Source: a virus. From it: a stretch of 32,831 nucleotides of DNA. The position numbers and the translations under genes are program-made. A model generated the notes under the pieces. That model saw nothing but the letters and a program-made list of their open reading frames with translations. It was not told where the DNA came from and searched no databases. The stretch covers positions 1-32,831 of IMG/VR virus record IMGVR_UViG_3300007609_000060. One strand, given 5' to 3'. Below are positions 7,904 to 25,442 of this stretch, piece by piece (position 1 is the first letter of the stretch; every line of letters begins with the position of its first letter).

Positions 7904-8569
7904 TCACGTCGGGTCTATTCTAATGTTACCTGACACACTTATTCTATAGTCGTCTGATGTATAAAACGGATATACGATGTGCTGAAGACTAGCCGGAAAC
8001 ATAAGTATAGTTCCTTCAAAAGTCTTATCAACAGGTACAGCCAGGTTTTTTATTTTTCCTAGTACGTCATTATATACAAAACAAAATTTAGATGTATAAA
8101 AATTATCTTTATGATTATCACTGGTCCCTGAGATTAACGGAAAATAATTTACTTCGTCTTCTAAGTTATAAGGTATTTTAAGCCATATAACAAAGCTTAA
8201 CGCCCCTGAATGATGATGTATAGGATTAAACTCGTGTTTTTTTTGTTTGTTGACCCATAAACTATCTAGATATAAATTATACGAGTTGCATTTAGATACT
8301 TCTTCAAACTCATCCAAATGCCCCGGATTAGATTCGGTCCAAGATTTCGCTATAGATAATAACCAATTTTGAAAATAATTCTTTACATGATCCAAAGAAT
8401 ACTCTTCCTTAATATGTCCTTGTAGTCTATGGTTGTAGGGTTCAGAGTCCTTAGAAAGTTTATCTATTTCTAAATTTAAAATATTTTGTAATTCTACAGG
8501 CATTCGAGATTCAATAAATCTAAGATTGGTAAAGTCTCTAATCGATGCCCAATGTGTATCATCGGTCAT
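7904..8569 (-). CDS. Putative 2OG-Fe(II) oxygenase-like protein
   Basis: 221 residues. Iron-site candidates are PIHHHSGALSFVIWLKIP (His118-120) and the distal block MFPASLQHIVYPF (His197), followed by Arg209 in DYRISVSGNI, matching the R-x-S-x-S-x-N-I ending of its neighbours. The first half is helical and unlike the other paralogs. The start is supported by GAGGAAAA about 8 nt upstream. Together with the genes at 8588, 9145 and 10504 it forms a set of diverged relatives in one operon, 16 nt before the HAD gene. Substrate unknown; whether it is active is inferred from the retained His/His/Arg. Confidence 0.7.
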   Translation of the reverse strand: MTDDTHWASIRDFTNLRFIESRMPVELQNILNLEIDKLSKDSEPYNHRLQGHIKEEYSLDHVKNYFQNWLLSIAKSWTESNPGHLDEFEEVSKCNSYNLYLDSLWVNKQKKHEFNPIHHHSGALSFVIWLKIPYNLEDEVNYFPLISGTSDNHKDNFYTSKFCFVYNDVLGKIKNLAVPVDKTFEGTILMFPASLQHIVYPFYTSDDYRISVSGNIRIDPT

Positions 8570-8587: not shown

Positions 8588-9145
8588 TTAATCGTAAAGT
8601 CTATCAGCATCACTATCTTCTATCAATACATCCATATTCCACGAAATAATTGTTTTGATTTCTTCTGTATTATTATTCGGAGCCCTATGGATTACCCAGC
8701 TAGGAAATGTAATAATATCACCTTCTCGCACGTCAAAAGTGTGAATATTTTTTGTAACAGGATTTATCCATTCTGTTTGTGCTTTATCTTCCGGTAAGTT
8801 TACATAATATACATTTGTAAAGTTGTTACTGTGTGTATGCCATGCATGCTTGCCACCCTTTGCATACTGCTGAAACCAAAGTTCCGTAATTCCAAATGTT
8901 TGGTACCCCATAGTATTACACCATTCGTTGAGATGAACAGCAAGAGGAATATTTATAATTTTTAGCCATTCTCTGTCTCCGTCATACCTTGCTGTATTCC
9001 AGTCACACCTGACAATATCGCTATCAGGCGCAGTGATATGTTCTGCATCTTCTTGCCTTAGAATAGCATCTAGTATTTGTTGTTTTAGTTGATCGTGTTC
9101 TCTAAAAGGTTTAATACTTAAAGGAAATGGTATGATATTGTCCAT
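8588..9145 (-). CDS. 2OG-Fe(II) oxygenase-like protein, Arg site altered
   Basis: 185 residues. The jelly-roll region has KHAWHTHSNNFTNVYYVNLP (His100, 103, 105) and the distal block TFPSWVIHRAPNN (His153). This closely follows the H-x-H-[PS]-N pattern of the TIGR02466-like protein at 5802. At the place of the 2-oxoglutarate-binding Arg the sequence reads EEIKTIISWNM, with Lys164/Thr165. It may use a Lys, bind another co-substrate, or have a changed activity. The ATG shares one base with the stop of the upstream oxygenase-like gene (TAATG), indicating translational coupling. Confidence 0.7.
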   Translation of the reverse strand: MDNIIPFPLSIKPFREHDQLKQQILDAILRQEDAEHITAPDSDIVRCDWNTARYDGDREWLKIINIPLAVHLNEWCNTMGYQTFGITELWFQQYAKGGKHAWHTHSNNFTNVYYVNLPEDKAQTEWINPVTKNIHTFDVREGDIITFPSWVIHRAPNNNTEEIKTIISWNMDVLIEDSDADRLYD

Positions 9146-9759
9146 TAGTACAAATCGCCCTGTCTTTTGATTATTATATTTGATGAAAACACAACTCTTG
9201 GTTCAGTTGTTTGATTATAATATACATAGTGCTCAAGACAAGACGGAAATATAATCAATAATCCTTCTTTCATTATAGGCTCAAAAGTATTTGGATACTG
9301 ATTCATTGGGTCCAGTTCTAGATATTTTAAATGGTTTGAAAAGTTAGGTGTTCTAAAAACAAACTGTCCTGCTTCCGGGCTTGACTGTTTTAATACAACC
9401 ACAGACGAAAATGCCGGTACATTGGTTGTTATATGATTGTGCAACTGTTGGTGATCGTATTGATTGTAAACATTATACCAAGTTTGCATTTCGACTGTGT
9501 ATTGAAATTTAAATAAGAATGAATCTATATAATCTTGAATATAAGGTCCGGGAAGTAATGTGTCATTCCATTTTTTAAAAAAATCAGCATCACCCCAGCG
9601 TTGTGATGAATTTTTAGAAATTCTACTGGCGCTACCTTTATATTCATCGTCTTCTCCATTTAGTGTTAATGGAAGATAATGATCTTGTAGTGTCTTTAGA
9701 TCCGATGCATCTAATTCTAAAATGCCTACAGGATAGCCTTCGAGATGTATTTTTAGCAT
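9145..9759 (-). CDS. Putative 2OG-Fe(II) oxygenase-like protein
   Basis: 204 residues. The proximal site is QQLHNHITTNVPAFSSVVVL (His107, His109). The distal block IFPSCLEHYVYYN (His177) is followed by Arg188 in EPRVVFSSNI, so both His sites and the Arg are retained. The N-terminal 90 residues diverge from the paralogs, consistent with a different substrate. It starts 3 nt after the SGNH-like gene ends and shares one base with the next gene at TAATG. The target is unknown; late expression from the promoter at 13925 is inferred from the uninterrupted run of genes. Confidence 0.7.
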   Translation of the reverse strand: MLKIHLEGYPVGILELDASDLKTLQDHYLPLTLNGEDDEYKGSASRISKNSSQRWGDADFFKKWNDTLLPGPYIQDYIDSFLFKFQYTVEMQTWYNVYNQYDHQQLHNHITTNVPAFSSVVVLKQSSPEAGQFVFRTPNFSNHLKYLELDPMNQYPNTFEPIMKEGLLIIFPSCLEHYVYYNQTTEPRVVFSSNIIIKRQGDLY

Positions 9760-9762
9760 ATT

Positions 9763-10491
9763 CTAAATATCATTCCTACTATATATATTAGTTTCGAACC
9801 CAGTTGTAAGATCTACTTTTTCAAAAGTGTCAAAAAAGTTAATTATTTTATTTGCCAAAATTTTATGATTAACTTCTGAAAAATGATTGAATCTATAATC
9901 TCCAGTTTTATTGTAGTATGCTATAGCCGTCTTTTCACAGTCAAATTCTAATCCTGATGCTTCACACAAGCTTCCTTCTACTCCTTTAATATTGTGGAAT
10001 CCCGGAAGTATCAAACACTTAATGTTTTTTTTGCCATATAATTGGGTCCTAAGTGATAATGAGTCAAGAAACATATTGAAGCGTATTAAGGGGCGTTTTT
10101 CGAAATACAGGTGTCTTTTATACATTTCCAGTGCTTCGTATTCTTTTTTGGTAACCTCAACATCTGGCGTCAAACTGATTCCTAGATTAGTCGCTAGGTA
10201 TGGTTTATTTTCAAAGAACCATTCTCTATACATAGAAGTCAACTGTATTATGATACAATCTCCATCCTTAAAAAATGGTTCTTTTTCGAATAGTTTATAA
10301 TAAATGTAATCATTAGAGCACCCTAGTACTGCGTGATTCTCATATTCGCTATTTCCATATATGCTTTCGTTAACAATTGTGGTCCAATTCTTTTCCAAAG
10401 GCAGATATGTTATAGGAGTTCCTTTAGGTCCAAAAACTTCATTTCTATGAGAATCGGGAATTGAAAAACTATCTCCAAAAACGTGCAACAT
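9763..10491 (-). CDS. SGNH-fold protein
   Basis: 242 residues. Block I is MLHVFGDSFSIPD (Asp7, Ser8), a near-standard G-D-S motif. A further glycine/Asn block appears in VLGCSNDYIYY. The C-terminal block is RFNHFSEVNHKILANKI, which aligns with DMHPSVTHHKNFANHI of the plus-strand SGNH protein (shared H-x-S-x3-H-K-x2-A-N-x-I), so the two are probably distant relatives. The usual Asp three residues before the catalytic His is not in place, so activity is uncertain. Candidate role: sugar O-acylation or de-acylation within the operon. AGAGAG precedes the ATG; 12 nt separate it from the upstream oxygenase gene. Confidence 0.65.
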   Translation of the reverse strand: MLHVFGDSFSIPDSHRNEVFGPKGTPITYLPLEKNWTTIVNESIYGNSEYENHAVLGCSNDYIYYKLFEKEPFFKDGDCIIIQLTSMYREWFFENKPYLATNLGISLTPDVEVTKKEYEALEMYKRHLYFEKRPLIRFNMFLDSLSLRTQLYGKKNIKCLILPGFHNIKGVEGSLCEASGLEFDCEKTAIAYYNKTGDYRFNHFSEVNHKILANKIINFFDTFEKVDLTTGFETNIYSRNDI

Positions 10492-10503: not shown

Positions 10504-11130
10504 CTAATTTACAGTGATACCAGTTTCTAACAAGATATTAAAAGACAAACTAATACGGTCCTCGTTAGTTGTATTTTCATTAACGCTATGATCCAAGAAT
10601 CCAGGAAACAACAGTAGTCTACCCTGCTCCGGAGGGAATGAATTCTCGTGTGCAAACGAGCTTCCGATTGGATTACATTTTAATGCCTTATGCGAATTCC
10701 TAAAAACTATGTCACCATCCTTACCGTTTGTTTTAAACCAATACACTCCGCTAATATGGCTAGTTCCGTGATCGTGAATGTGAGAAGAAAGTCCAGTCTT
10801 GGTTAGTGAAAGCCATGAAGTTTCGATTGCTGTTTTATAATTTGGCTTAACATTCATCGCTGCCATATAATTGTAGCAATGATGCATAATAAATTGCGTA
10901 ACAGCTTTCATATCTTTAGACTTTAAAATATTTTCAATAAAATTTCCTTTATTAGATAGATACTGCGAAGAACTATTCCAATTTGGGTTTTGTCCCCACT
11001 GATCTTTCGTATAGAGTTCGTCAACTACAGTCTGTAGTTCGGCTTGTACATCTGTATATTCCGTGTTTTCTAGTTTGTATGTATAAAGAGGGGTAGGAAA
11101 TAATGTAAAAATTTGTCCCTGAGAGTCCAT
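10504..11130 (-). CDS. Putative 2OG-Fe(II) oxygenase (TIGR02466-like)
   Basis: 208 residues and the clearest family member here. The N-terminus IFTLFPTPLYTYKL is typical of the family. The iron site is SSHIHDHGTSHISGVYWFK (His117, 119, 121), the distal block is LLFPGFLDHSVNENTTNEDR (His181, Arg192), followed by ISLSFNI. All expected metal and 2-oxoglutarate ligands are present, so I expect an active hydroxylase or oxygenase; the substrate is unknown. Two nt separate it from the carbamoyltransferase upstream, placing it third in transcription order in the modification operon. Confidence 0.8.
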   Translation of the reverse strand: MDSQGQIFTLFPTPLYTYKLENTEYTDVQAELQTVVDELYTKDQWGQNPNWNSSSQYLSNKGNFIENILKSKDMKAVTQFIMHHCYNYMAAMNVKPNYKTAIETSWLSLTKTGLSSHIHDHGTSHISGVYWFKTNGKDGDIVFRNSHKALKCNPIGSSFAHENSFPPEQGRLLLFPGFLDHSVNENTTNEDRISLSFNILLETGITVN

Positions 11131-11132
11131 GA

Positions 11133-12956
11133 TTATTCTCGTTCGTTATGATTTATATTTACTAACATTTTTGTTGCAGGAAAATAGATGTAATTAATTC
11201 CTGAATTGTAAAGAGTACGCATTGCATCATCGATAGTTTCTACTAATGGTTCACCACCTAGATTAAAACTTGTATTAAAAAGTGCAGGCACTCCTGTTTG
11301 ATTTTTGAATTCTTTAATTAGATTATACCAATGAAAGTTTTGTTCCTCTGTTACAGTTTGAATTCTACAGGTGCCGTCTATGTGTATAACTGCTGGTATT
11401 TTTTCTTTTACACCTGATTGGCAATTAACTGCATACATCATACTTGGAGAATCTTCCATACCGCGCAAATCAAACCAGTCATGTACATCATCATGCAGCA
11501 CCGATGCGGCAAACGGGCGGAAGTATTCACGCTTCTTAACCAAATTAACAAAATCCTTACCATCTGGATCTGTTGGATCATACATTAGTGAACGATTACC
11601 TAATGCTCGAGGTCCACTTTCACCTCGTTCTTGATACAATGCTACAATGTTTTTCTGTCTAATAGTGTCGATGACTTGTTCGTAATCGACATTGTATTCT
11701 ATAGTGCCGTCGTATTTTTTAGCACATTCGACAATTTTTTCTTCTGTTATGTGTTGTACCGGACCTAAAAATAAATTTTCATCTTTTGATCTTACTTTTG
11801 TATCTTGAGATGTTTTATAGTAATGATAAAATGCTGCACCTATAGCTGTACCTGCATCGTTCGAAACAGGTTCAACATATATCTTTACGTCTTTCGGTAA
11901 ATGCTTTAAAAAGAAATAATTAGCAACACAATTTAGAGCATAGCCGCCGCTAATAACAATGTTTTTATTGCCGGTTCGTTCAATTGATTTTAAAATTAAA
12001 TCAAGCACTAATTGTTGTGATTCTACCTGAACATTATACGCCATATTTCGTCGTGACGGCAGTAATGTAACATCTTCTGCATCTGATTTTTGTAAAAGTT
12101 CATTGGCTTTATTTTTTTGATTTTCATCATTTGGGTCTGTAACAGCATTAACTATTTCATTAGGGTCGTAAAGTCTGTCTCTAATTTCCGGAAATTGCGA
12201 ATCATCAACCCATGCTCCATTTGGATATGTATTAGTAAATAGATCTTTATTACCGCCAAAATTACCATAAATCTTAGGTGCTTTGTTCGGTTCTCCATAC
12301 GGAAACAAACCCATAGTTTTACCCGCTTCTATTGAGTCGAATCCACAAAATCTAGTTACCGCTTCGTATGCTTTAACAATACCTGCTTTATCGTTAATTA
12401 TAACTTCTGTACCATTGCCGTCACTATTATAGTGTTCAGTACTCCAAGGTCCGTTGCCTCCAAAATGCTTGTACACTTCCTCGAAGTTTGCAGGGTATGA
12501 ACAATCATATATACTTTCAACTTCAAACATAGTTTGGCCATCAGGACGTTCAATAAATGTGCCTGCGCCGTCGACAATAACAGCACTTGCTTTCTCAAAT
12601 CCAGATCTATAAAACGCGGCGGCCGCATGACTTCTATGATGTTGATCGTGATATTTAAATACTTGGGTATCGACATCGTCGATTAATCTCAACTTCCTAG
12701 CAAGTGCAGAATACACATCTTGCCTTACATAATCGTTCATCGGCTCGTCATGATCTTGTGTGTGAGATATTGCCAAATAATCGATCTTGTCAGTATAATC
12801 AAGAATTTTGACCATACTCGCGAGCGGTCCGCCGTCATATTTTTGGCGAGATAATCTTTCTTCTTCGATTGCAAATACAATTTCGCCATCCTTTAAAAGG
12901 CATACGCCTGCGTTGTGTCCTCGAGCAATGCCTGCTATATAACCTGTTTTTTCCAT
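11133..12956 (-). CDS. NodU/CmcH-family O-carbamoyltransferase
   Basis: 607 residues, full length for the family. N-terminal Kae1-like part: IARGHNAGVCLL (His14; usually G-H-D-A-S), HHRSHAAAAFYRSG (His106 and His110, metal-binding H-x3-H), VIVDGAG (Asp129). C-terminal part: GGYALNCVANYFFL, VSNDAGTAIGAAF, RGESGPRALGNRSLM and FRPFAASVL, all family signatures. The enzyme moves a carbamoyl group from carbamoyl phosphate, via carbamoyl-AMP, to a hydroxyl on a sugar or other acceptor. Known acceptors include Nod factors, antibiotics, LPS heptose (WapO of Pseudomonas aeruginosa) and, I recall, 5-hydroxymethylcytosine in phage DNA. Its ATG shares one base with the stop of the GT9-like gene. Confidence 0.93.
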   Translation of the reverse strand: MEKTGYIAGIARGHNAGVCLLKDGEIVFAIEEERLSRQKYDGGPLASMVKILDYTDKIDYLAISHTQDHDEPMNDYVRQDVYSALARKLRLIDDVDTQVFKYHDQHHRSHAAAAFYRSGFEKASAVIVDGAGTFIERPDGQTMFEVESIYDCSYPANFEEVYKHFGGNGPWSTEHYNSDGNGTEVIINDKAGIVKAYEAVTRFCGFDSIEAGKTMGLFPYGEPNKAPKIYGNFGGNKDLFTNTYPNGAWVDDSQFPEIRDRLYDPNEIVNAVTDPNDENQKNKANELLQKSDAEDVTLLPSRRNMAYNVQVESQQLVLDLILKSIERTGNKNIVISGGYALNCVANYFFLKHLPKDVKIYVEPVSNDAGTAIGAAFYHYYKTSQDTKVRSKDENLFLGPVQHITEEKIVECAKKYDGTIEYNVDYEQVIDTIRQKNIVALYQERGESGPRALGNRSLMYDPTDPDGKDFVNLVKKREYFRPFAASVLHDDVHDWFDLRGMEDSPSMMYAVNCQSGVKEKIPAVIHIDGTCRIQTVTEEQNFHWYNLIKEFKNQTGVPALFNTSFNLGGEPLVETIDDAMRTLYNSGINYIYFPATKMLVNINHNERE

Positions 12957-13897
12957 TATTTTTTTCCTAAGGTAGTTCTTATCTGCTCAATAATTTTATT
13001 AATTGTATCTTTGCTGAGTTTCATTAGATTTTCATTGTGTCTATCAATTCTAACATCCACTACAACTCTTAATGGAGAATACAATCTTTGCCCTTCACCG
13101 TTATCTATTATTTTAAGAGTGCTACTATCAGGATACGAAATATTTTCAGGGAATGTACTTCCTATGACTACTGTGCCTGGTTTTTTTAGAGCATGCACAA
13201 CATGCTGACCTACCGAGTCACATCCTAGGAAATAATCAGCAGCATTAATAATGCCAGTCCATTGTAATAAACTAGCTTGTTCCGGAAGCATTACATTAAG
13301 TGCTTTTTCTGTGGGTATTTTTAATTCGCTCATTAGAATGACGGCATAGTCTTTATTCAACTCTTCAAGTATTGTTATAATATCGCTAACTTCGAACGAT
13401 CTGCCACTTTCATCAACAATAACTCCGCCGTGCATTGTAGCAGTAGATCCAAATGGCTGAAATATTATTACCTTTTCTTTTTTAAAATGCCTTCTTGCCT
13501 CGTTAACTAATTCCTCTCCTGTTGCGATATCTTTTTTACCAATAAAAAGATTATTATATTCTTTTGTTTTTGGAATAGTTTCGGGTGGAACATCATAATT
13601 AATCAACATATCAAAGGCTTGAACTAGATTACATCTTTGAGTAAAATACGCATTAAGTTTATAAGGTTCAGGAGTAATAATCTCTCTGTCTTTTAATTTT
13701 TCAAAAAGATTTGGATCGTTAGCAGGAAATACATTAGATGTTAATATTTTACTAGTTAAGTATAGATCTATCCAGCCTTCGACAACGATAACTGCTGTTG
13801 GGTCTATATGTTGTACGTGGTGTTCAAGGGCGGGGATGGCGCAGAGAACTCTACCTGCGCCACCGTTTATAAAAAATGCTTTTTTCATTAATATCAT
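12956..13897 (-). CDS. GT9/heptosyltransferase-like glycosyltransferase
   Basis: Up to 313 residues. The N-terminus KKAFFINGGAGRVLCAIPALEHH follows the G-x-G-D-x-L-x-x-x-P-A-L opening of GT9 (ADP-heptose:LPS heptosyltransferase) enzymes. The C-terminal half has VIIFQPFGS, then IINAADYFLGCDSVGQHVVHAL and GSTFPEN, matching the donor-binding D-S-x-x-x-H-x-A-x-A-L ... G-x-T-x-P pattern. Donor and acceptor are not known. Two starts are possible: ATG at 13897 has AGAGG only 2 nt away, while ATG at 13888 has it 11 nt away and gives MKKAFF; I prefer 13888. It is first in the operon, behind a hairpin and a late-promoter-like motif. Confidence 0.7.
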   Translation of the reverse strand: MILMKKAFFINGGAGRVLCAIPALEHHVQHIDPTAVIVVEGWIDLYLTSKILTSNVFPANDPNLFEKLKDREIITPEPYKLNAYFTQRCNLVQAFDMLINYDVPPETIPKTKEYNNLFIGKKDIATGEELVNEARRHFKKEKVIIFQPFGSTATMHGGVIVDESGRSFEVSDIITILEELNKDYAVILMSELKIPTEKALNVMLPEQASLLQWTGIINAADYFLGCDSVGQHVVHALKKPGTVVIGSTFPENISYPDSSTLKIIDNGEGQRLYSPLRVVVDVRIDRHNENLMKLSKDTINKIIEQIRTTLGKK

Positions 13898-13980: not shown

Positions 13981-14808
13981 TTACCTGTAAGTAATTCTTA
14001 CTAAGCCGCCAGCGCCAAAGGAACCCCAACATGCGTTTCGTGACGATGTTACATGACCTGCGCCGCCACCACCAGGGAAGGCCGCGTGTGCTGAACAACA
14101 AGCCAAGTTACCTGTGCAAGGATGCTTACCTCCCACTCCATGTGATGCAAAAAATGGCCCTGAAGGAGAACCTGCGACTGAGAAGTGGTCTGCACAACAG
14201 TTGTACTGTCTGTTCATTGAACCTGCTGTGCCTCTAAATACCATATCAGCTCCATATCCTGCTTCGTTACAGGCATTTGCTTGCCAAGTATTATTATATA
14301 TTCCTCTATTACACTGGACATTACCAATGTGACAGTTATAACAGTTTGACACTTTGTCCCAAATAGTCGGACCACCCATGCCGCCAGTTGCGCAAAAGTT
14401 ACTTAGTCCTGTACCCGTAACATAACTTCTACACCCATGTCGATTATTTACATTACACCGACAGCAACAACTACAAGCTGATGATCCAGCAGCACACACA
14501 GTGTATGTGTCGCCGTCGTTAAACCCGTGTACTGATTTTTGTAAAGTTTTTACGGCATAATTACCACCTTGGCCACCAATGCCAAAATCGTTGTCGCCGC
14601 CTGATGAGCCACCAGGACCGCCACCGCTTAATATTTCAAACTTTATCGATGTGATTCCGTTTGGAACAGTCCACTGGCAACATCTACCTCCGTTACAAGG
14701 AGACCACCAATCTGTATCATAAACATATAGTTCAAAAGCTTCAGGAATTTTACATTGATGTTGGTTATTACTAAAAATGATACCTTGGTTTGATAGTTGT
14801 ACTGGCAT
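13981..14808 (-). CDS. Cys/Gly-rich putative receptor-binding adhesin, copy A
   Basis: 275 residues with 22 cysteines (8%), including ACSCCCRC, CC pairs, NCYNCH and ACCSAH. Gly-rich loops (SGGGPGGSSGG, GIGGQGG, PGGGGAGH) and the ending GSFGAGGLVRITY resemble Gly-rich fibre-tip adhesins of marine T4-like phages; such loops can form the polyglycine II stacks known in gp38-type adhesins. No signal peptide, so disulfides would have to form after lysis; metal binding is the alternative. It is about 90% identical, without gaps, to the protein at 15536-16363 (about 26 substitutions by hand, all 22 Cys kept). Its ATG shares one base with the stop of the chaperone gene, and AAAGGG gives the ribosome-binding site. 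Confidence 0.75.
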   Translation of the reverse strand: MPVQLSNQGIIFSNNQHQCKIPEAFELYVYDTDWWSPCNGGRCCQWTVPNGITSIKFEILSGGGPGGSSGGDNDFGIGGQGGNYAVKTLQKSVHGFNDGDTYTVCAAGSSACSCCCRCNVNNRHGCRSYVTGTGLSNFCATGGMGGPTIWDKVSNCYNCHIGNVQCNRGIYNNTWQANACNEAGYGADMVFRGTAGSMNRQYNCCADHFSVAGSPSGPFFASHGVGGKHPCTGNLACCSAHAAFPGGGGAGHVTSSRNACWGSFGAGGLVRITYR

Positions 14809-15524
14809 TATTCAACACCCTTTGGGAATTGTCCGATTGCATCATTATCTTCCTCAGTTCTATCAGCAATCATAATTACTGGTACTTCTGGGTCATTAAA
14901 GTTTGGATCAACACCTTCATCCGGTGCTATAGGGAACCTTACCAAATATCCAGGAACTCCGTCCCATTCATTTGGCATGTTTCTAAGTTTTTGTCTATAA
15001 TCACTCCATTGTTGCTTTAATGATGCAGGCATGTCTTCTGCAAGCTTACCGTCACTCATATATAATCTATGATTTCTTTCCTCTCTAAGGAAATTCCATG
15101 ATCTGTCTCTATCAAATTCAACAAACTTTAACGGTGCTTTATAATCATTGTATAATGCATATTCATCATACACTTCTGCAATATGGCTTGGATCAGGAAG
15201 TATAGCATTTGGTTGATCCTCAGGCCCAACTTTAACTTCGTAAACTTTTGGTGCTTCTATGCCGCCCCATAGCAGTGCAATTTTTATGATGTTTTCGTCA
15301 GTATTTGCACTTAGAACTTCTCTTCTAAGATGCAATGGTAATGGGCAATCAGGTTCCTCGTCCGGACTGTGAGTTTCTTCTAAATACCCAGTTTCTTTAT
15401 TGACCCAACATATTATCTCAGAAGGGCCATTATATACCTGAGTGCTTGTCTTTCCTAACTTAGTTTCGGTAGAATACAGTTCGTCTGGTATACTATAAGT
15501 TAGTGTTTTAGTTATATTTTCCAT
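14808..15524 (-). CDS. Tail-fibre/adhesin assembly chaperone-like protein
   Basis: 238 residues. Residues 143-200 carry the signature of phage tail-fibre assembly (TAC-like) proteins: W-x-F-L-R-x-E-R-N-x-x-L (143-154), SDGK (157-160), W173, YRQKLRNMP (176-184) and a final x-x-F-P. The first 120 residues are acidic and unlike known domains I can name (IALLWGGIEAPKVYEVKVG). It has a strong AGGAG site 8 nt before the ATG and sits between the two adhesin copies, directly coupled to copy A. That placement matches other phages in which the adhesin and its assembly factor are adjacent. No membrane segment. Confidence 0.7.
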   Translation of the reverse strand: MENITKTLTYSIPDELYSTETKLGKTSTQVYNGPSEIICWVNKETGYLEETHSPDEEPDCPLPLHLRREVLSANTDENIIKIALLWGGIEAPKVYEVKVGPEDQPNAILPDPSHIAEVYDEYALYNDYKAPLKFVEFDRDRSWNFLREERNHRLYMSDGKLAEDMPASLKQQWSDYRQKLRNMPNEWDGVPGYLVRFPIAPDEGVDPNFNDPEVPVIMIADRTEEDNDAIGQFPKGVE

Positions 15525-15535
15525 ATGTTTTCTCC

Positions 15536-16363
15536 TTAACTATAAGTAATTCTTACTAAGCCGCCAGCACCAAAACTGCCCCAACATGCATTCCGTGACA
15601 TAGTTGAGTGACCTGCACCGCCGCCACCTGGGAAAGCCGCGTGTGCTGAACAACAAGCCAAGTTACCCACACAAGGGTGCTTACCTCCCACTCCGTGCGA
15701 TGCACTAAATGGCCCTGAAGGGGAACCTGCTACAGAAAAGTGGTCCGCACAACAGTTGTACTGTCTGTTCATTGACCCTGCTGTGCCTCTAAATACCATA
15801 TCAGCTCCGCGTCCTGCTTCGTTACAGGCATTTGCTTGCCAGCTGCTGTTATACAATCCTCTATTACACTGTACATTACCAATGTGACAGTTATAACAAT
15901 TTGACATCTTATCCCAAATGGTCGGACCGCCCATACCACCGACTGTGCAAAAGTTACTTAGTCCTGTACCCGTAACATAACTTCTACAACCGTGTCGATT
16001 ATTTACATTACATCTACAGCAACAACTACAAGCTGATGATCCAGCAGCACACACAGTGTATGTACTGCCATCTGTGAATCCGTGTACTGATTTTTGTAAG
16101 GTTTTTACGGCATAATTACCACCTTGGCCACCAATTCCGTAGTCAAAATCGCCACCTGATGAGCCACCAGGACCTCCACCGCTTAATATTTCAAACTTTA
16201 TCGATGTAGTTCCGTCTGGAACAGTCCACTGACAACATCTACCTCCGTTACAAGGAGACCACCAATTTGTATTATAAACATACAATTCATAACCTTCGGC
16301 AATCTTACATTGATGTTGGTTATTAGCGTAAACGATGCCTTGGTTTGATAGTTGTACTGGCAT
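15536..16363 (-). CDS. Cys/Gly-rich putative receptor-binding adhesin, copy B
   Basis: 275 residues, a gap-free paralog of copy A at about 90% identity with the same 22 cysteines, Gly-rich loops and ending. Differences cluster in residues 10-35 (IVYANN, AEGYELYVYNTN) and at scattered loop positions (DFDYGIGG, TVGGMGG, HSTMSRN). These may tune binding while the Cys scaffold is held constant. Its ATG shares one base with the stop of the S74 fibre gene, so fibre and adhesin are translationally coupled. Stop to chaperone start is 11 nt. A host-recognition role is inferred from composition and position. Confidence 0.75.
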   Translation of the reverse strand: MPVQLSNQGIVYANNQHQCKIAEGYELYVYNTNWWSPCNGGRCCQWTVPDGTTSIKFEILSGGGPGGSSGGDFDYGIGGQGGNYAVKTLQKSVHGFTDGSTYTVCAAGSSACSCCCRCNVNNRHGCRSYVTGTGLSNFCTVGGMGGPTIWDKMSNCYNCHIGNVQCNRGLYNSSWQANACNEAGRGADMVFRGTAGSMNRQYNCCADHFSVAGSPSGPFSASHGVGGKHPCVGNLACCSAHAAFPGGGGAGHSTMSRNACWGSFGAGGLVRITYS

Positions 16364-17235
16364 TATTCTGCTCCTCCCTTAATTGTATCTAATTCTTCTT
16401 TTAGAATTTTTATAGATTCTATCAATAACGGAATTATTTTATCATAATTAACAGCAAGATACCCATCTTCTCTTTCAACTACTGCCGAAGGTAGAGCCTC
16501 TTGCACTTCTTGAGCAATAACTCCTACATCGAGCTCTGTTCTTTCTGGATACATTTCTTTTGCAACACTATTCCAGTAGTATTGATATCCTGAAATTTTT
16601 GAAAGTTTTTCTAAACTGTTATCGATCTTTGAAACATTTTCTTTTAATCTTATATCTGATGATGCATAGGCAACTACATCGGCGCCTGCATATAATGCAC
16701 CACTTAATCCAATTCCTCCTGTAACTATTATAGTTCCAGTAGTTGTCGATGTTGATGCAGTGCCGCCACCTAACGATAACGATCCTGTGCTTGGCTGGAA
16801 TGATAATTTTGTTGTGGATATACGAGCATCACTGATACCGCCAGATGAGGTCGGAGTAATAGTAAGATAATGTGTGGCAGCATCGTCGTTGTTATCTGTA
16901 ATTGTTACACCTGGATTTGCCCAGCTTAATGTTCCGCTGCCGTCTGTAGATAATAGCTGTGCTTCGGTGCCGTCTGTTGCTGGCAGGGTCCAAATTAAAT
17001 CGGCAGTCACGGTATCAGGTGCTTTAAATCCAATGTAGTTTGAACTATCACTGTCTGCAAATCTTAAATTACTTGCGGCTAAAATTTCAAAATCTTTTAA
17101 AGATTGAATAATACCTGTGCCGTCTGCATCTAACCTCAAGTTAGAATCTACTTCTACAGATCTTAATGTGTTATCATCGAAAAAGTTAAATCCAAAACCG
17201 CCTGGATTAATACCGCTCGAAACTCTTCTTCCCAT
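16363..17235 (-). CDS. Tail fibre protein with C-terminal S74 intramolecular chaperone
   Basis: 290 residues. Residues 20-190 are fibre-type beta sequence (NLRFADSDSSNYIGFKAP, IWTLPATDGT, GQLLSTDGSG-like units, TGGIGLSGALYAG). The last 100 residues are a peptidase S74 domain: ASSDIRLKENV holds Ser193 and Lys198, the five-residue spacing of the self-cleaving Ser-Lys pair of endosialidase-type chaperones. GVIAQEVQEALP and AVNYDKIIPLLIESIK are further signatures. The domain helps the fibre trimerise, then cuts itself off. The adhesin copy B follows with a one-base stop/start overlap. AAGGGAAA precedes the ATG. Confidence 0.9.
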   Translation of the reverse strand: MGRRVSSGINPGGFGFNFFDDNTLRSVEVDSNLRLDADGTGIIQSLKDFEILAASNLRFADSDSSNYIGFKAPDTVTADLIWTLPATDGTEAQLLSTDGSGTLSWANPGVTITDNNDDAATHYLTITPTSSGGISDARISTTKLSFQPSTGSLSLGGGTASTSTTTGTIIVTGGIGLSGALYAGADVVAYASSDIRLKENVSKIDNSLEKLSKISGYQYYWNSVAKEMYPERTELDVGVIAQEVQEALPSAVVEREDGYLAVNYDKIIPLLIESIKILKEELDTIKGGAE

Positions 17236-17597: not shown

Positions 17598-20500
17598 TTA
17601 TACTAAAAAGTAATTCCACGCTATTGGGTATCCAGTTACAGGGCCTTTGAAGTTAAACTTACCTCGCATGTTAATAACTGATCCGTCGACTGTTCGTATT
17701 TGATTAGTATTTATAAATACCGATCCAGCCGTTACACTATTCACATTAAGTGATGCACCACCGCCGCCAATCTGTGACGCAATGAATGCTCTAATTGCTC
17801 GCTGTGTTGGTACAACACTATCCGAGTCAGCTGTAAAGAATGGGTCTGAACTAAACTCATCAATACTTGCTGATCCACCGCCTAGTGTAACTTCACCCAA
17901 CGATAGTTCTTGTAGACCTGCAATATTAAATGCATCAGCATTCAATGTTGCAACACCAGTTGACTGTTCAATTGTGAACAAATCACCAACTCGGAAGTTA
18001 CCATCCTGGTCCGTACTTGTATAGAATACACGACCACCGTTTCCTTCTTTAGTTTCTTGAGCCGGGATTGGGTCTTGTGTCGGTGTTCCTGGATAGTTTG
18101 TTTCTTCAAAGCTACCAGTACCAATGTCTAGGAAGTCGTGTCCTGTTAGTCGTACTTGACTAAATCTAATTCTAGTTGTAAGACTAGTGCCATTTTCAGG
18201 AGCTTCTTGAATTGTTAATTCTGGACTTACTTGGAAGAATGCTGTATATGCACCGTCGTTCTGTCCTAAGAAGGTTAACACATTTACAAGTTTAAATGTT
18301 CGATTTGGTAAGTGACCAAATACAATATTTGATCCGGGTACCGGACGCTGGCTTAATCTTCTAACAAATATGAATGCTCCTGGTTGATAGAAATCAGCAA
18401 ATCCGTTACTATTATCGTCATCAACCTCAGCATTAGCACTTGTGTATTCTTGTCCTCTATCTACAAAACTAGGCGTAGCTAATGCTCCTTTGCCTACTCT
18501 AACTTCTACCGGTAGTTCAAATGTGTTATTTGGATCAGTAACTGTCATAGTCGGAGCAGTATCATATCCTGAACCTGGTTCTGTTAATCTAATTACAAAG
18601 ATCTTGGTTTGTGCTACAAAAGCTCTTGCTCGTGTAGTTGCGCCTGTTCTAATCTTAACAGCATGATCGCCATTATCGTTCTGGAACGCTAACCAATATC
18701 CTGTTTTTTGAGGATTACCAAATACAATAGCATTATAACCATCGTTTTGTATTCCGCCGGCTGTTGGTATACTTTCGTCAGTCCAATATAATCCGTTTTC
18801 AGACTTCATTACAAACTGATATCCAGTCTGTCCATTTAAAGTAGCTGTAGCTATGAACAATCCTTGTCCATATCTAACTCTTTGATAACCTGCAGGATCA
18901 TTAGAATCTGGAGATCCGACAGTCATTGCTGTCCAAGTTTCGCCGTCGATGCTGATAGCACCATTATTGCTATCGCTAGCAACTGCTACGAATGCTCCAC
19001 GACCCCATGTTACGCTGGTCCATGTACTGTTAGCAGGTAAGTCTTCTTGTGTCCAAGTTTCACCACCGTCATCTGAATATTCTACAGCATCAGTATTACC
19101 TGTTTTAACAGCAACAAATTTACCCATACCATATGTAACATCAACAAACCCTGTGCTATTTAATGTACCTGTAACATCCCATACTTGGCCGTCTAAAGAT
19201 ATTGCAACTGTGGTACTATCGCTAGCTATTGCAACAAAACGACCGTTACCGAAAACTACTCTTGTCCAAGATGCACTTACTGGTAAACTTGATGAGAACC
19301 AGTTAATACCGTCTGCACTCCATGCTGCTCTTGTTCCGCCAGTAGCAACCGCAACAAATCTTGATACTTTTAGATCTGAAGATCCGTCATCAATTAATCC
19401 TGATGCGACGCCAGTCCAGTTAGTGGTAGGTAATGGTAAGATACGAGTGGACCAATTTTCACCGTCGGTGCTAGTAAATATACCGTTTCCGCTGTTTGAT
19501 TTATTTGCAACAAATAGGCCGTTTAATCCGAAACCTTCTTGATCATATTCAAGAATTTCACCGGTTACACTGTTAATTGCTGTAATCGTAAATGTAATAT
19601 CGTTAGTAGGTGTTTCTCCGCCTAAACTTGTACCTAGAATCTTAAATGTTTCTAGTCTAGAATAATCTAGTCCACCGTCTGTTAATGTAATAATATACTT
19701 CGAACCGTTACGAACTACATCAAATGTAGCGCCAGTTCCAATTCCTGTATAACTTGTAGGTGATAATCCAGTATAGGTTGCGGCAGTTTCACCGAATGTT
19801 GCATCAACCCAGTCTCCTACTTGTGGTAATTCTAAACTGTCTGCTTGGAATCCTGGACTTGTAAAACTAATTGCAGGCTCCATTACATATGTCGAACTTG
19901 CATTTGGACTTACAATTGTTGTTCCTGGAACTACATGATCCCATCCAGATTGGCCGTCACTTTCTCTTACAACATTGGCTAGTTTTGTACCTGCATTATA
20001 TGTACTAACGATACCAAATTGTCCTTGACCAGCTCCGCCGTCAACAAAGACTTTCATACCAACATATGCAGAACTTACTTCTTGGTCTACCGCAGCCAAT
20101 GTTATACTTGATGTTGTACCACCTTGTGCTGTGTTAGCATTTGTTAAATACCCATCACCACCGAACTGCCCACTCGAATCGTCTCCAAGATCAATCAATC
20201 TAACCTGGAACACTGCATCATCACGGAACTCGTCTGCTTCAATATCAACATTTACGCCGCCACCTGTAATAGTGTATGCTACTTCGGTGTAATCGTTACC
20301 AGCATGGTCAAATTCAAAATTGAAAATATCGTCGCCGTTTGTATTTGCGGACCCAATAACTGCATTAAATCCACTCTTATTGTCAATTACCGCAGTATTT
20401 GGTATTTCGTCTGCATCAAATCCTTCTGCTACTGCGCCAAAGTCTCCATACGAACAGTTACCATTAGTACCACGAATACGCCCACCTGATTCTGATAAGT

Positions 20501-23500
20501 AACCAATGTGTGCATAATATGTAAATACAGACACAAGTTCTGCTCTTCCGTTATTTGATACCCAAGCACCTATACCGTCGCTGATTACTTGCGTAAAGTC
20601 ATTTGATACAATACTATCATTACCGCCATTGTGCAAACTTCCATCAATTTTTTGACCAATTGCCGCTGTGCCGAATGTGGTTACACCTTGAACATACGGC
20701 GAACGAGTTAAGATCCATCCTCTATAATCATCTGGGCCCCAACCTGGATCTAACGAGCAGTATGCTCCAGCACTTACACGACTTGTACCATATTCATTTT
20801 CAGGTAGTAAGTCACCAGTTAGTTCTACCAGTGTTTGGTTACGAACTCCAGTTGCATTTCGTAGATAATAGCAATCTTCTTCAAGTGATCCTACTACTGC
20901 ATTAGCATAGTATCTTGCAGCATACAATGACTTATAGTTACCTGGGAACTTAATATCGTATTTAAGAGCATCAATATAAGTGTTAACATCTCTTAAACAT
21001 AATGCATTATTGTAATATAAACTTACAGTAAATGACCCTACTGTTTCGACGTCGAAGTCTCCGCCGGCTGATATATCTAAAGGTGATTGTGCATTTCTTG
21101 TCTCAGCAATTGTAATAGTTTCGCTGTCAATAACATTTTGAACATAGTATGTTACACCTGTTTGGATTCCACTAGTCGTGGCTCCTGTAAAGCGAATTGC
21201 TGTGTTTCTACTCATCCAGCTAGTGTCGCTTACATTGATGTAATCTGTAGAATCTTGTGTAACAGTTACTGTCGAAGTATATGTGTTCGCAATCCAGTTA
21301 TCAATTTCTGAAACAATAAAGTCTCTGTTTCTTTCTAGTTGCAGAACAGCATATTGTCTGTTACGAATACCGGTACTACAGTTGTCACCTTCGAGCGAGC
21401 CAGTGTAGATAATATCATCAATAATGGTCATTAATGATTCAATTCTAGCCTGTGCAGTTGTATCTCCGCCAACATTCGCTAACGCTTCAGTTTTAGCATT
21501 TGTCAAAGCATCTCTAGTAATTTGCTTTTGATTTAAAGTAAACACTTCGGCTGCTGACGATCTCAAGTAAGAATACCCAGCTTTAATGCTTTGGAAGTTA
21601 CTATCAAGCATAAAGTCAAAACTTACAGCTTCAAGAATTAATCTTAAATCTCTGATACACTTGTTTTGTATGTATAAGATTTTAGTTCTATTACCTTTAG
21701 TGCTAGTAGCACTTGGATATACAAATTCTCTTGTTTCGCCTGATGAAGTACAGGATACTGTGATATTTGTAATATCTACAACGTCACCAGCTTCTAAACC
21801 GTGATCTGTAGATGTGGTCACTGTTGCGTACCCTGTAGATTCATTATAGACAAAGTTAGTGATATTTACATCTGTATCATCTGCTTTGGTTACTACACCG
21901 CCGCTAACATATGTGTGAGCAATGTCATTTTTACCTACATAGACTATAAAATCGTCGTTGGTTAATCCATTTAATCTTACAACAAAATCTATATGGTAGG
22001 CTACTTCATTCAAGTCATCAATGACATTTTCGATAATAGTTTCACGAGCTGCACTCAATGTTTCTGCCGCCGTAATAAGAGCAGTAGTGGACCCAACACC
22101 GTCGGCAACTGCTGGATAATCAATCTTGTTAGCTGTAATAGATAATCCAGTGCCATTAGTTAAAGTATATGCGCTTCCACCAAATGTCTCAGAAACTGTA
22201 AATGTGTTACCAGCAGGAGTACTTGCAATCCAATATCTCGTATTTTTAACGAATCCGTTTTCTGTGCTTCTAACAACAATTAAATCGCCGACCTGTAAGT
22301 TATGGGTAGCAGATGTTGTAACCACATTACTAGCAATAGTAGTAATAGTAACACTAGGCCAGTTGTCAGTCCCGCCATTTACAAGGTTTCTAATAATATC
22401 TATTGCGCCGTTTGTAAATGTGATACTGGCTGCAGATCCAGCAGTATCTACAAATTGAGGAACTGCGGTTTGTAGTGGTGTTGGTAATAATATCGCGCCA
22501 ATAACACTTTGTAGTCTTGATTTTAAGAAGTCGTATGCGGCAACTGTAGCACTAAGTTCACTTGTGCTAATCAATCTCTGCCCTGCATATCCTTCATAGT
22601 ATGCTAACCCTGCATTCAAACTTTGACTATATCCGCCATAAGTTAAATCATAAGCAACAGCATCAACGATATACCCAACATCTTGTCTACATTTTGTTCT
22701 GCTGTACTTTAGATCTGGGTAGTTTGCGGCTATAAAAGCAATAACTTCTTCTTTTAGAAACTCTTTGTTTTCTACAACTAATTTTCTAGCATCGCCATAC
22801 CCTACAAGATATGAATCGTTGTATCCGACTGGGTCGGTACTAGATGCCATATGTGTAGTACCAATTCTAAAATCAATATTTTGTTGGATCGATCTTACAA
22901 GTTGTGTAACGGCATCTTGCTCTAATGTATCAGCATACGGCCATTCTCTACTTTGAACTTCGGTATTTCCGACGCTTTCTGTAACTTCGTTACCTACTAC
23001 AATGTCGTTTACGATAGATTCTAATCTACCTAATGCACCAATACTATACTTGGCATCTGTTTTATCGACAGAACTAATTGCAGGCCCAACATTTGTTCCT
23101 CTAAGCTCATCACCTAGTATACATACACCTTCTGGAACAATAATCGGCAATACTTCTCGATACTTACCAGTGCTGACCATAATTGCAACTTCATCAAAAT
23201 TTCTAGCAGGAATTCTGCTAGTATCGCCATCGTCTATTGCATTTGTTATAATAGTTGTTAATGTTTGTATTCTTGGAAGTGCTGTTGCTTCTGCTGTAAT
23301 AGAAGCATCAAAATATTGAGTAACAATAGCTGTAGAGTTATCTCCATTTGTATTTTGATAATTAACACTAGGAGCTTCTTGATCTAATACATTAGAAATT
23401 AATGTCAGCATATAATTATAAGCTGCTAATGACTGGGCTTCCTCTCCAGCTAAACCAGGATATGCGCCTGGAGTGTCTTCGACAATGCCGCCTACTAGTG

Positions 23501-25442
23501 AGTTTGCAGCTCCTCTAGTTTTTACATTGCCGCCATGAGTCATATCATACACTAATGCATCTAGCACAAAACCAACATCTCGTTCGCACTTGTAATCCTC
23601 GTAATCAAAATTTTCCCAGATACTGCCAGGTGTGGCATTAGCAATTTGATTTTGGATATATTCAGTAACTTCTCGTTGGATAAAAACTCTGTTAAGTTCT
23701 ATCAATGTGCGAGCATTAGGGTTTTTAACACCTTTTTCTACTTGTTCACAAGCATATCGAATTGTTTTCCATGGCTTGTCTTTAGTTAATCCACCTATAG
23801 GAGCAGGTTGATCTACCCCGTTAGTAGCAACATAGTAAACATTTTCTACAGCTCCTAAACTAACCCATTCAGGAATTGAATCATCACTAACTCTTAAGAC
23901 TTGACCTTCTGTTCCAATAGGCAGTCTAGTAGGTCCAGAACCACTATAATATACAAGATCTCCTTGTGTTGTAAGAACTGATATTTCACTACCAATTGCA
24001 ACTACATTCCAATATGTTCCTGTAACATCTTGATCTGGTCTGCTGTTATCTGCGCCGCCACCTTCAGCTACTATAGACGATCCGTCATCCTGCTCTGAAC
24101 GATGCTTTTTAATACAAATATATGCATTAGCACCAAATCTAATTGCATCTCCAATTTCGTATTCTACATCATCCTGCCATTCGCCTTGCCATGCAATTCC
24201 ACTAACAAGTCTTTGATAAAAATTTACATTTGCAGGATGAGCTGAAGCAAATACAGTCATTCCTCCAGTATCTGTTGTAACATCTGTGGTACTAACAAGA
24301 TCTTCATCATTAGAAATTATAATTTCTGTAGCACTTACTACTTGTTTTACATAATAAGTTGCACCTGGATTTATATCGCCAAACGATGTGCCAGTAAAAC
24401 GAATTGCCATACCTACAACCATTCCGGCTGAGCTCGTTACAGTAATTCTATTAGTTGCATCAGCAGTTGCGCTTGCAAATGTGCCGATAGACGGAGAATC
24501 GATTGTAGCTAGATAAGAATATCCGTTTACTCTTACAATAGATCCTACTTTATAACTAGTTTCGATACTCCAATCGTTTTCAAATCTCAAGCCTTCTGAG
24601 AATAAATCCCAATCACTTTGCCCAGGTGTTGTAGGAGTGGTATTACTATGATTTGTTTTGGCAACATATTGGTTACCGCCATAACGAACAATATCGCCAG
24701 GTTGATAAACAGTAGAATCGCTCCAATCGTCTTCGAATTCAAAGCCTTCGACAAACTGACTCCAACGATTAGCAGTGACATCTGTTTCGAAAACTGTATC
24801 AGGAACATGATTAACTGTGCAGATCCATAAGCCTGCACCATATTTAACTACATCATTTACTCGGTATTTTGTAGTTCCGCTTGACCAGGTTTCTCTATAT
24901 TTTAGTCCAGGATTGATTACCTGCCACTTTCCAGAATCTTCAGCAAGACCGTCAATACCGCTAGTGTCACTTAATGCACTTTGATGAGTTTCTCGACAAA
25001 TATAAGTAATTCCGCCATAAGCTACTACATCATTTTTCTTATATTGAGTATTAATTGCCCAGTTGCCCTGCCAAATAAAACTTTCAGCAAATACATCCCA
25101 CTTATCTTGGTCAGCTTCTAAACTTAAGGCAGAATCAGAATTTGATGTGTGCGGAGTATTACAAATATAAGTGATGCCACCATAGAGTACAATATCGCCA
25201 TCGCTATAGAATGTGTCAACATCCCAATCGCTTCTCCACGATTGGCCATCTGACATCAAATTCCAATTTGATGGGACTATATTAAGATCCTCATAAAAGT
25301 CTGAAGTGTCTGATGTATGACCTACTTGACAAATATAAACCTTGCCAGCATATCTAACAACGTCATCAACAAAATATGTAGTAGACGGTGCCCACTCATC
25401 TTTCCATACAAATCTAATTCTACCTAATCTAAATTCTGCCAT
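17598..25442 (-). CDS. Giant tail fibre/virion protein (2614 aa) with seven N-terminal repeats
   Basis: Residues 1-486: seven carbohydrate-binding-module-like repeats, W-x(6-8)-Y-x-x-x-D-x-V-x-Y-G-x-x-Y-I-C-x3-H, with a linker inserted in the sixth. Near 540-565: YYVATNGVDQPAPIGG and KPWKTIRYACEQ, the start of a beta-helix-type region. Four helical K-C-x-R-D-V modules lie at about 617-650, 917-950, 1261-1295 and 1481-1520. A block at 1562-1690 (SLDPGWGP, AIGQKIDG, HNGG, ISDGIGAWV) is shared with the 1860-aa paralog. Six Asp-box-like units (S-x-D-G-x-x-W) lie at about 1985-2225. The C-terminus (GHDFLDIGTG, STDQDGNFRVGDLF, SVVPTQRAIRAFI) is a fibre-end signature. A perfect TATAAATA motif lies 19 nt upstream and GGAG before the ATG. 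Fibre role is by family resemblance; catalytic activity is not shown. Confidence 0.85.
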   Translation of the reverse strand: MAEFRLGRIRFVWKDEWAPSTTYFVDDVVRYAGKVYICQVGHTSDTSDFYEDLNIVPSNWNLMSDGQSWRSDWDVDTFYSDGDIVLYGGITYICNTPHTSNSDSALSLEADQDKWDVFAESFIWQGNWAINTQYKKNDVVAYGGITYICRETHQSALSDTSGIDGLAEDSGKWQVINPGLKYRETWSSGTTKYRVNDVVKYGAGLWICTVNHVPDTVFETDVTANRWSQFVEGFEFEDDWSDSTVYQPGDIVRYGGNQYVAKTNHSNTTPTTPGQSDWDLFSEGLRFENDWSIETSYKVGSIVRVNGYSYLATIDSPSIGTFASATADATNRITVTSSAGMVVGMAIRFTGTSFGDINPGATYYVKQVVSATEIIISNDEDLVSTTDVTTDTGGMTVFASAHPANVNFYQRLVSGIAWQGEWQDDVEYEIGDAIRFGANAYICIKKHRSEQDDGSSIVAEGGGADNSRPDQDVTGTYWNVVAIGSEISVLTTQGDLVYYSGSGPTRLPIGTEGQVLRVSDDSIPEWVSLGAVENVYYVATNGVDQPAPIGGLTKDKPWKTIRYACEQVEKGVKNPNARTLIELNRVFIQREVTEYIQNQIANATPGSIWENFDYEDYKCERDVGFVLDALVYDMTHGGNVKTRGAANSLVGGIVEDTPGAYPGLAGEEAQSLAAYNYMLTLISNVLDQEAPSVNYQNTNGDNSTAIVTQYFDASITAEATALPRIQTLTTIITNAIDDGDTSRIPARNFDEVAIMVSTGKYREVLPIIVPEGVCILGDELRGTNVGPAISSVDKTDAKYSIGALGRLESIVNDIVVGNEVTESVGNTEVQSREWPYADTLEQDAVTQLVRSIQQNIDFRIGTTHMASSTDPVGYNDSYLVGYGDARKLVVENKEFLKEEVIAFIAANYPDLKYSRTKCRQDVGYIVDAVAYDLTYGGYSQSLNAGLAYYEGYAGQRLISTSELSATVAAYDFLKSRLQSVIGAILLPTPLQTAVPQFVDTAGSAASITFTNGAIDIIRNLVNGGTDNWPSVTITTIASNVVTTSATHNLQVGDLIVVRSTENGFVKNTRYWIASTPAGNTFTVSETFGGSAYTLTNGTGLSITANKIDYPAVADGVGSTTALITAAETLSAARETIIENVIDDLNEVAYHIDFVVRLNGLTNDDFIVYVGKNDIAHTYVSGGVVTKADDTDVNITNFVYNESTGYATVTTSTDHGLEAGDVVDITNITVSCTSSGETREFVYPSATSTKGNRTKILYIQNKCIRDLRLILEAVSFDFMLDSNFQSIKAGYSYLRSSAAEVFTLNQKQITRDALTNAKTEALANVGGDTTAQARIESLMTIIDDIIYTGSLEGDNCSTGIRNRQYAVLQLERNRDFIVSEIDNWIANTYTSTVTVTQDSTDYINVSDTSWMSRNTAIRFTGATTSGIQTGVTYYVQNVIDSETITIAETRNAQSPLDISAGGDFDVETVGSFTVSLYYNNALCLRDVNTYIDALKYDIKFPGNYKSLYAARYYANAVVGSLEEDCYYLRNATGVRNQTLVELTGDLLPENEYGTSRVSAGAYCSLDPGWGPDDYRGWILTRSPYVQGVTTFGTAAIGQKIDGSLHNGGNDSIVSNDFTQVISDGIGAWVSNNGRAELVSVFTYYAHIGYLSESGGRIRGTNGNCSYGDFGAVAEGFDADEIPNTAVIDNKSGFNAVIGSANTNGDDIFNFEFDHAGNDYTEVAYTITGGGVNVDIEADEFRDDAVFQVRLIDLGDDSSGQFGGDGYLTNANTAQGGTTSSITLAAVDQEVSSAYVGMKVFVDGGAGQGQFGIVSTYNAGTKLANVVRESDGQSGWDHVVPGTTIVSPNASSTYVMEPAISFTSPGFQADSLELPQVGDWVDATFGETAATYTGLSPTSYTGIGTGATFDVVRNGSKYIITLTDGGLDYSRLETFKILGTSLGGETPTNDITFTITAINSVTGEILEYDQEGFGLNGLFVANKSNSGNGIFTSTDGENWSTRILPLPTTNWTGVASGLIDDGSSDLKVSRFVAVATGGTRAAWSADGINWFSSSLPVSASWTRVVFGNGRFVAIASDSTTVAISLDGQVWDVTGTLNSTGFVDVTYGMGKFVAVKTGNTDAVEYSDDGGETWTQEDLPANSTWTSVTWGRGAFVAVASDSNNGAISIDGETWTAMTVGSPDSNDPAGYQRVRYGQGLFIATATLNGQTGYQFVMKSENGLYWTDESIPTAGGIQNDGYNAIVFGNPQKTGYWLAFQNDNGDHAVKIRTGATTRARAFVAQTKIFVIRLTEPGSGYDTAPTMTVTDPNNTFELPVEVRVGKGALATPSFVDRGQEYTSANAEVDDDNSNGFADFYQPGAFIFVRRLSQRPVPGSNIVFGHLPNRTFKLVNVLTFLGQNDGAYTAFFQVSPELTIQEAPENGTSLTTRIRFSQVRLTGHDFLDIGTGSFEETNYPGTPTQDPIPAQETKEGNGGRVFYTSTDQDGNFRVGDLFTIEQSTGVATLNADAFNIAGLQELSLGEVTLGGGSASIDEFSSDPFFTADSDSVVPTQRAIRAFIASQIGGGGASLNVNSVTAGSVFINTNQIRTVDGSVINMRGKFNFKGPVTGYPIAWNYFLV

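Follow-up and report, generated by a model that had tools for sequence, protein, structure and literature searches.

A cysteine-rich, probably disulfide-braced version of a glycine-rich adhesin in a virus related to marine cyanomyoviruses

The question raised by this locus is why two neighbouring viral genes, placed among tail-fibre genes, encode proteins so rich in cysteine, given that a phage virion protein would be made in a reducing cytoplasm. T4-like viruses rank with the most abundant marine viruses, and host recognition by marine cyanophages is, to our knowledge, largely unknown. The window, i.e. the whole stretch of 32,831 nucleotides analysed here, corresponds to IMG/VR record IMGVR_UViG_3300007609_000060, and its features around the two genes (copies A and B) are listed in the table. 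As a whole, these proteins are probably a cysteine-rich version of a known glycine-rich adhesin, braced by disulfides; the cysteine feature itself is real, strongly conserved and widespread.

Table. Features of the window in and around the adhesin block (coordinates in the window)
Feature	Coordinates	Strand	Remarks
Linked carbamoyltransferase	11133..12956	(-)	PF16861 E 7e-55, PF02543 E 2e-28
Linked downstream gene, weak glycosyltransferase-9 similarity	12956..13897	(-)	PF01075 E 0.074, under the cut-off
Copy A, paralog of copy B	13981..14808	(-)	22 Cys at the sites of copy B; 26/275 residues differ
Tail-fibre-assembly-type chaperone between the copies	14808..15524	(-)	Cys-poor; Phage_tail_APC in the C-terminal part
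Copy B, predicted Cys/Gly-rich tip adhesin	15536..16363	(-)	275 aa, 22 Cys
Predicted fibre-tip protein, C-terminal Peptidase_S74 (intramolecular chaperone)	16363..17235	(-)	Directly upstream of copy B
2614-aa ORF in fibre position	17598..25442	(-)	Upstream of the adhesin block; assigned by position and length
2OG-FeII_Oxy_5 ORF	5802-6416	(+)	
2OG-FeII_Oxy_5 ORFs	7904-8569, 8588-9145, 9145-9759, 10504-11130	(-)	

Cysteine makes up 8.0% of both copies, at identical positions and with a CSCCCRC motif at residues 112–118; the other tabulated ORFs of the window range from 0 to 2.1%, and the Milano phage paper (PMC10811340) gives 0.9% for T4 proteins and 1.4% for Milano proteins. The coordinates, the 22 shared cysteines, the CSCCCRC cluster and the 26 differences reported in an earlier note on this DNA were all confirmed. 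That note had also read strong selection on the cysteines from the two copies. Purifying selection does act on the pair overall (dN 0.062, dS 0.434). As the chance of 26 differences in 275 sites sparing all 22 cysteines is 0.10 (hypergeometric), the pair alone hardly demonstrates selection on these residues, and the two-copy comparison was rejected as proof; strong selection on most of the cysteines is instead borne out by conservation among the relatives.

These relatives were collected by overlapping scans of IMG/VR viral contigs (38, 79, 13, 79 and 1 loci), six-frame ORFs of at least 150 aa from 216 loci and the window being searched with two profiles. A tblastn search of the phage collection with the window protein gave no match at E 1e-5, and relatives in that collection surfaced only with a diverged homolog as query. 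A total of 327 distinct homologs was obtained, split into 127 closer to the window (lineage 1) and 200 closer to S-SSM7 (lineage 2). Homologs lacking many cysteines, named in the earlier note as counter-evidence, were looked for, and none of the 306 full-length relatives (21–36 Cys), some of them found through Cys-containing peptide patterns that bias towards Cys-rich matches, has fewer than 21. In two of the scans, one of the two patterns used was free of Cys (GAGGL and GGGP types), and neither scan brought up a Cys-poor relative. The median is 24 Cys in lineage 1 and 28 in lineage 2, with maxima of 35 and 36, respectively, and the Cys share is 6–12% in the family, or about one residue in ten.

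Cultured cyanomyoviruses possess two to three such genes per phage, all annotated 'hypothetical protein': PSSM2_304 and PSSM2_306 in P-SSM2 (36 Cys each), S-SSM7_114–116 (29, 28 and 30), Sf-FS3_97–99 (28, 28 and 25), SXBG_00224–226 in S-CAM1 (36, 31 and 25) and T040910_100–102 in S-CAM3 (36, 35 and 24). Like those of the window, these genes (24–36 Cys) lie between the fibre and carbamoyltransferase genes, although the S-SSM7-type proteins share only about 33% identity with those of the window. The cultured viruses also carry psbA, which is present in 7/7 lineage-2 or cultured records and absent from all 13 window-type records examined, two of them of 186 and 127 kb. From this distribution, the window virus is related to marine cyanomyoviruses, and a cyanobacterial host is not evident for it. 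A protein peculiar to the window virus can thus be rejected, and the cysteine content that the earlier note called exceptional is so in degree; the two copies are nothing unusual within a large family, in which cultured relatives have more cysteines. P-SSM2 also encodes a Gly_rich_2 protein of the ordinary sort (PSSM2_126), whose 485 residues include 2 Cys. Two contigs binned as Actinomycetota and Euryarchaeota MAGs (L135 and L136) carry the phage gene order of the adhesin block with three Cys-rich genes each (24–35 Cys), and are probably mis-binned phage DNA.

Conservation was then read from 80 non-redundant lineage-1 sequences (median identity 54%) and 169 lineage-2 sequences, five short fragments and near-identical rows (22/102 and 21/190) having been dropped. 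Twelve of the 22 window cysteines occur in 80/80 lineage-1 sequences (105, 112, 114, 115, 118, 126, 139, 156, 159, 166, 204 and 237), followed by C43 (79/80), C231 and C260 (76/80), C205 (75/80) and C238 (74/80), while C180 (70/80), C116 (65/80), C44 (48/80), C19 (31/80) and C38 (7/80) are less kept. The claim that all 22 are invariant was therefore rejected. At the column level, the median conservation of Cys is 0.99 vs. 0.61 for non-Cys/non-Gly columns in lineage 1 (p 6e-7) and 0.997 vs. 0.60 in lineage 2 (p 2e-8). Concerning Gly columns, Cys is equal to them in lineage 1 (p 0.31) and higher in lineage 2 (p 0.009).

In a MAFFT alignment at about 33% identity, 14 Cys columns are common to both lineages (window positions 43, 44, 105, 112, 115, 118, 126, 139, 156, 180, 204, 205, 231 and 237). 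This core is complete in 91 of 96 sequences, with 13 cysteines present in four and 12 in one, in a set for which 13 of 79 lineage-1 rows were hand-picked, every one of them with Cys at 44 and 180. As these two sites are less often Cys in the wider lineage 1, the core is to be taken as 12–14. Each lineage adds near-invariant cysteines of its own: 114, 116, 159, 166 and 238 in lineage 1, with 260 aligning near 245/246, and 49, 77, 82, 223, 242 and 246 (L141 numbering) in lineage 2. With the 14 core cysteines and the lineage-specific sets, the family reaches up to 36 cysteines in a single chain.

As for the nature of the protein, both copies match Pfam Gly_rich_2 (PF21722; 36.8 bits for A and 37 bits for B, cut-off 24.3) and, over the whole domain (residues 25–275), phrog_4205 (E 2e-54 and 7e-54, respectively), whose function is not assigned in PHROG. 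Single-protein searches with copy B and with the chaperone found no significant match, and a profile search of PDB sequences (profile A2) found none. An AlphaFold2 monomer model of copy B made with 79 sequences (pLDDT 76.9, pTM 0.76) is weak at 114–118 and 165–173, the former, within CSCCCRC, being its poorest part (pLDDT < 50). Over model residues 22–275 it matches the Pam3 tail fibre (7ypx_A; Z 18.2, rmsd 3.2, 196 residues), followed among solved structures by the Bxb1 tail tip (Z 13.1) and the LTK/ALK glycine-rich ectodomains (Z about 8.4). In a viral structure library, proteins of S-CAM3 and P-SSM2 and Gp38 of Synechococcus phage syn9 were matched. A lineage-2 protein modelled with 96 sequences (pLDDT 82.6) matches Pam3 as well (7yfw_a, Z 16.3, rmsd 3.1, 188 aligned; 7ypx_A, Z 17.0, rmsd 7.5). 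Gp38 of S16 or PP01 was not among the solved-structure matches listed for either model.

Both models have the TNF-like sandwich and distal glycine-rich loops of the Pam3 type, and an adjacent assembly chaperone is present (PF16778 in 14808–15524). Glycine-dominated loops (39% in Pam3) were not found in residues 61–268, where Gly makes up 21% and Cys occurs 18 times. Of the glycine loops, the central ones remain, at 61–83 and as GGGG near 246–249, and 18 of the 22 cysteines fall within 105–260; loop 61–83 contains 12 Gly and no Cys, segment 107–127 two Gly and six Cys. On the strength of this predicted fold and of the gene context, the adhesin identity put forward in the earlier note is well supported.

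Concerning that context, the ORF between the copies matches PF16778 (E 4e-8), phrog_9740 (E 3e-33) and phrog_4912, tail fiber assembly (E 2e-7), and the ORF upstream of copy B matches PF13884 (E 1e-16), with tail proteins as best PHROG matches. Further upstream, the syntenic counterpart of the 2614-aa ORF is annotated 'tail fiber-like' in P-SSM2 and S-SSM7. This ORF and that at 25475–31057 (1860 aa) have similar starts (MAEFRLGRIRFVW... and MAEFKISRIRYTW...), from which the two would probably be paralogous fibres. The neighbourhood was surveyed in 20 records, namely four cultured phages and 16 viral contigs, two of which are the window and its near-identical 57-kb partner (G001). All 20 have phrog_4205: 2 of them hold a single copy, 11 hold two copies and 7 hold three. 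The assembly-chaperone family is present in 19 records and lies at most 700 bp from an adhesin in 18; in P-SSM2 and S-CAM1, its place is occupied by a similar-sized gene without a chaperone match. A carbamoyltransferase is located at most 4 kb from the adhesin block in 20/20 records, a linkage which points to some sugar modification connected with the tip or with the surface of the host; carbamoyltransferases are listed among cyanophage genes (PMC3037559). In the records read, a glycosyltransferase-like gene stands between the carbamoyltransferase and the adhesins, and for homologs of that gene the order, taken from translations, matches in P-SSM2 and S-SSM7.

The arrangement of the block varies. 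Record L087 (4992–8033) combines neighbouring adhesins of two kinds, one of lineage 1 and one lineage-2-like, with a chaperone-like ORF and a further ORF that occupies the chaperone position, and the adhesin/chaperone alternation occurs twice in three records (G005–G007), so that the adhesin–chaperone unit duplicates and shuffles. Five window ORFs match 2OG-FeII_Oxy_5 (E 4e-10 to 5e-17) in a 5.3-kb stretch adjoining the carbamoyltransferase; related oxygenases clustered beside tail-tip genes are unusual. In Sf-FS3, a gene annotated 'prolyl 4-hydroxylase' adjoins the adhesins. The ORFs 6418–7293 and 9763–10491, without Pfam match, start with FGCSITQG and FGDSFS, presumably resembling SGNH-hydrolase starts.

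Whether the cysteines pair was approached through their gains and losses. In lineage 1, sites 42 and 44 are either/or: among 80 sequences, Cys is at 44 in 48, at 42 in 31, at both in none and at neither in one. Being alternate residues of a predicted strand (42–47), the two are expected on one face. The rule is lineage-specific, since the lineage-2 equivalents are both Cys (81/83 and 83/83). Sites 119 and 180 behave similarly (10/80 and 70/80, both in 0/80), as do lineage-2 sites 107 and 137 (ORF L132_5030; 124 and 34 of 169, both in none, neither in 11), where 25 sequences with both would be expected under independence and the Cys was swapped on 12 branches; of 18 lineage-2 rows displayed, 4 carry Cys at 137, and these have Trp at 107. 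By Fitch parsimony with a rough branch-length null, four lineage-2 column pairs were swapped on at least three branches vs. 0.5 in the null (1/500 reaching four). Far-apart cysteines were also gained together in lineage 1 (94+186 and 117+259, two sequences each); three of the five co-gain pairs involve an insertion in 11 sequences and are not leaned on.

Even Cys counts are in no clear excess (47/80 in lineage 1, p 0.15; 90/169 in lineage 2, p 0.44), and an even net change per Cys-event branch is no more frequent than in the null (14/44 and 28/111, respectively). From these odd counts and odd net changes, many members must hold unpaired or inter-chain cysteines. The swapped and paired changes thus favour pairing, while the lack of an even-count excess does not; to judge from these sequence patterns, a core is likely to be braced by disulfides, while some cysteines would be free or inter-chain. 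As no phage DsbA-type oxidase was found in 13 records (a control matched in 8), oxidation would be spontaneous or host-driven. Evr1_Alr oxidase had no match in 15 records, with its control silent too, and glutaredoxin, found in 7/13 records, all of the psbA type, was counted neither for nor against.

The same either/or sites would suit a metal site no less than a disulfide, and the first alternative is a tip braced by metal, with Cys groups (CxxC at 115–118, CSCCCRC) holding Zn, Fe-S or Cu(I). The CxxC at 115/118 is indeed common to both lineages (95/96 and 94/96), and a CHC motif whose His is conserved (H199, 166/169) occurs in lineage 2. However, CSCCCRC is lineage-specific (C114 in 0/83 and C116 in 1/83 lineage-2 proteins), the CxxC at 156–159 is not kept in lineage 2 (C159 equivalent, 4/83), and gains two at a time make no four-ligand site. 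The earlier note had pointed to His residues near the cysteines as possible ligands; most of these are not conserved (H160 50/80, H124 65/80 and H229 of KHPC 59/80), apart from H241 (78/80), which weakens the proposal. Metal bracing is considered unlikely.

A little less probable still is a redox latch, in which disulfides would keep the tip inactive or protected until reduction or thiol exchange at the host surface triggers attachment. The odd and varying Cys numbers would leave free thiols for it, and in phage Milano, which has an inter-subunit disulfide network in its sheath and baseplate, contraction needed both reductant and denaturant (PMC10811340). Against it, the most conserved cysteines form a core, which fits a scaffold rather than a switch, and a scan of window ORFs showed no gene for a redox partner. 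Very improbable, finally, is a Cys-rich protein that is secreted or stays in the cytoplasm and has no more than its gene position in common with the fibre. The lack of proteomic detection in the source passages covered would fit it (PMC3037559 reports virion proteomics of S-SM1 and tabulates the S-SM1, Syn9 and S-PM2 proteomes); the Pam3 fibre-tip fold and the chaperone so close by in 18/20 records speak against it.

The preferred reading is a tail-fibre tip adhesin in which disulfides, formed once the protein has left the reducing cytoplasm, brace the outer loops; it is considered fairly probable. Disulfides arising after lysis were among the roles suggested in the earlier note, and this suggestion is plausible and the one favoured here. 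In the mechanism that we infer, as regards virion location, disulfides, oxidation timing and role in specificity, the tip would be of the Pam3 gp24 kind, a TNF-like beta-sandwich with glycine-rich loops reaching towards the host, in which the central glycine loops would stay and the remaining loops bear cysteines. The chain would be made in the reducing cytoplasm, where the neighbouring fibre-assembly chaperone would help its folding, and after lysis, in oxygenated seawater, the cysteines would form disulfides replacing the glycine-lattice loop bracing of ordinary relatives. Such bracing would free other loop residues to vary for receptor choice, and the tandem copies would provide several tips of differing specificity. 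A bolder version is put forward only tentatively: across the whole tip class, a dense Cys network may replace most of the glycine lattice, the chain folding in the reduced state in the cell and locking only once it meets seawater, so that the attachment organ would mature after lysis and be redox-sensitive.

The literature on cyanophage tail fibres, on Cys-rich or disulfide proteins and on virion proteomes, as far as its texts were available, yielded no account of Cys-rich cyanophage tail tips, and 'cysteine' does not occur in the available portion of PMC10665884; cysteine chemistry at the attachment tip of a phage seems not to have been previously studied. Likely tip adhesins can now be named in P-SSM2, S-SSM7, S-CAM1, S-CAM3 and Sf-FS3, where they are still 'hypothetical'. 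If true, a bacterial virus would be the source of a rigid scaffold braced by Cys and bearing variable loops, and if the disulfides form only after release, virion maturation would take place outside the cell.

Among known systems, gp24 of Pam3 (chaperone gp25; PDB 7ypx) shares with the window proteins the TNF-like and glycine-rich tip domains and the adjacent chaperone gene; its glycine-rich domain is distal and receptor-facing, and the neighbouring chaperone holds it as assembly proceeds (PMC9608196). The two differ in that identity is 18%, glycine reaches 39% of that domain vs. 21% of residues 61–268 in the window protein, and the window copies are without a long N-terminal helical domain; 'cysteine' and 'disulfide' are absent from the main text of the Pam3 paper (PMC9608196). 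The TG ectodomain of ALK/LTK has the same TNF-like and glycine-rich arrangement (Z 8.4, up to 10.2), although these are animal receptor domains with 12–17% identity and no functional link is claimed. The T2-type gp38 of Salmonella phage S16 and of PP01 is likewise a glycine-rich tip adhesin with exposed recognition loops, but it is built as a poly-glycine II sandwich, with no Cys role described in the portion of the source available (PMC12892980). Agrobacterium phage Milano resembles the window virus in its unusually Cys-rich virion parts, where cryo-EM and mass spectrometry demonstrated disulfides; these link sheath and baseplate subunits, and the Milano structural proteins contain 2.1% Cys vs. 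6–12% in the adhesins described here (PMC10811340).
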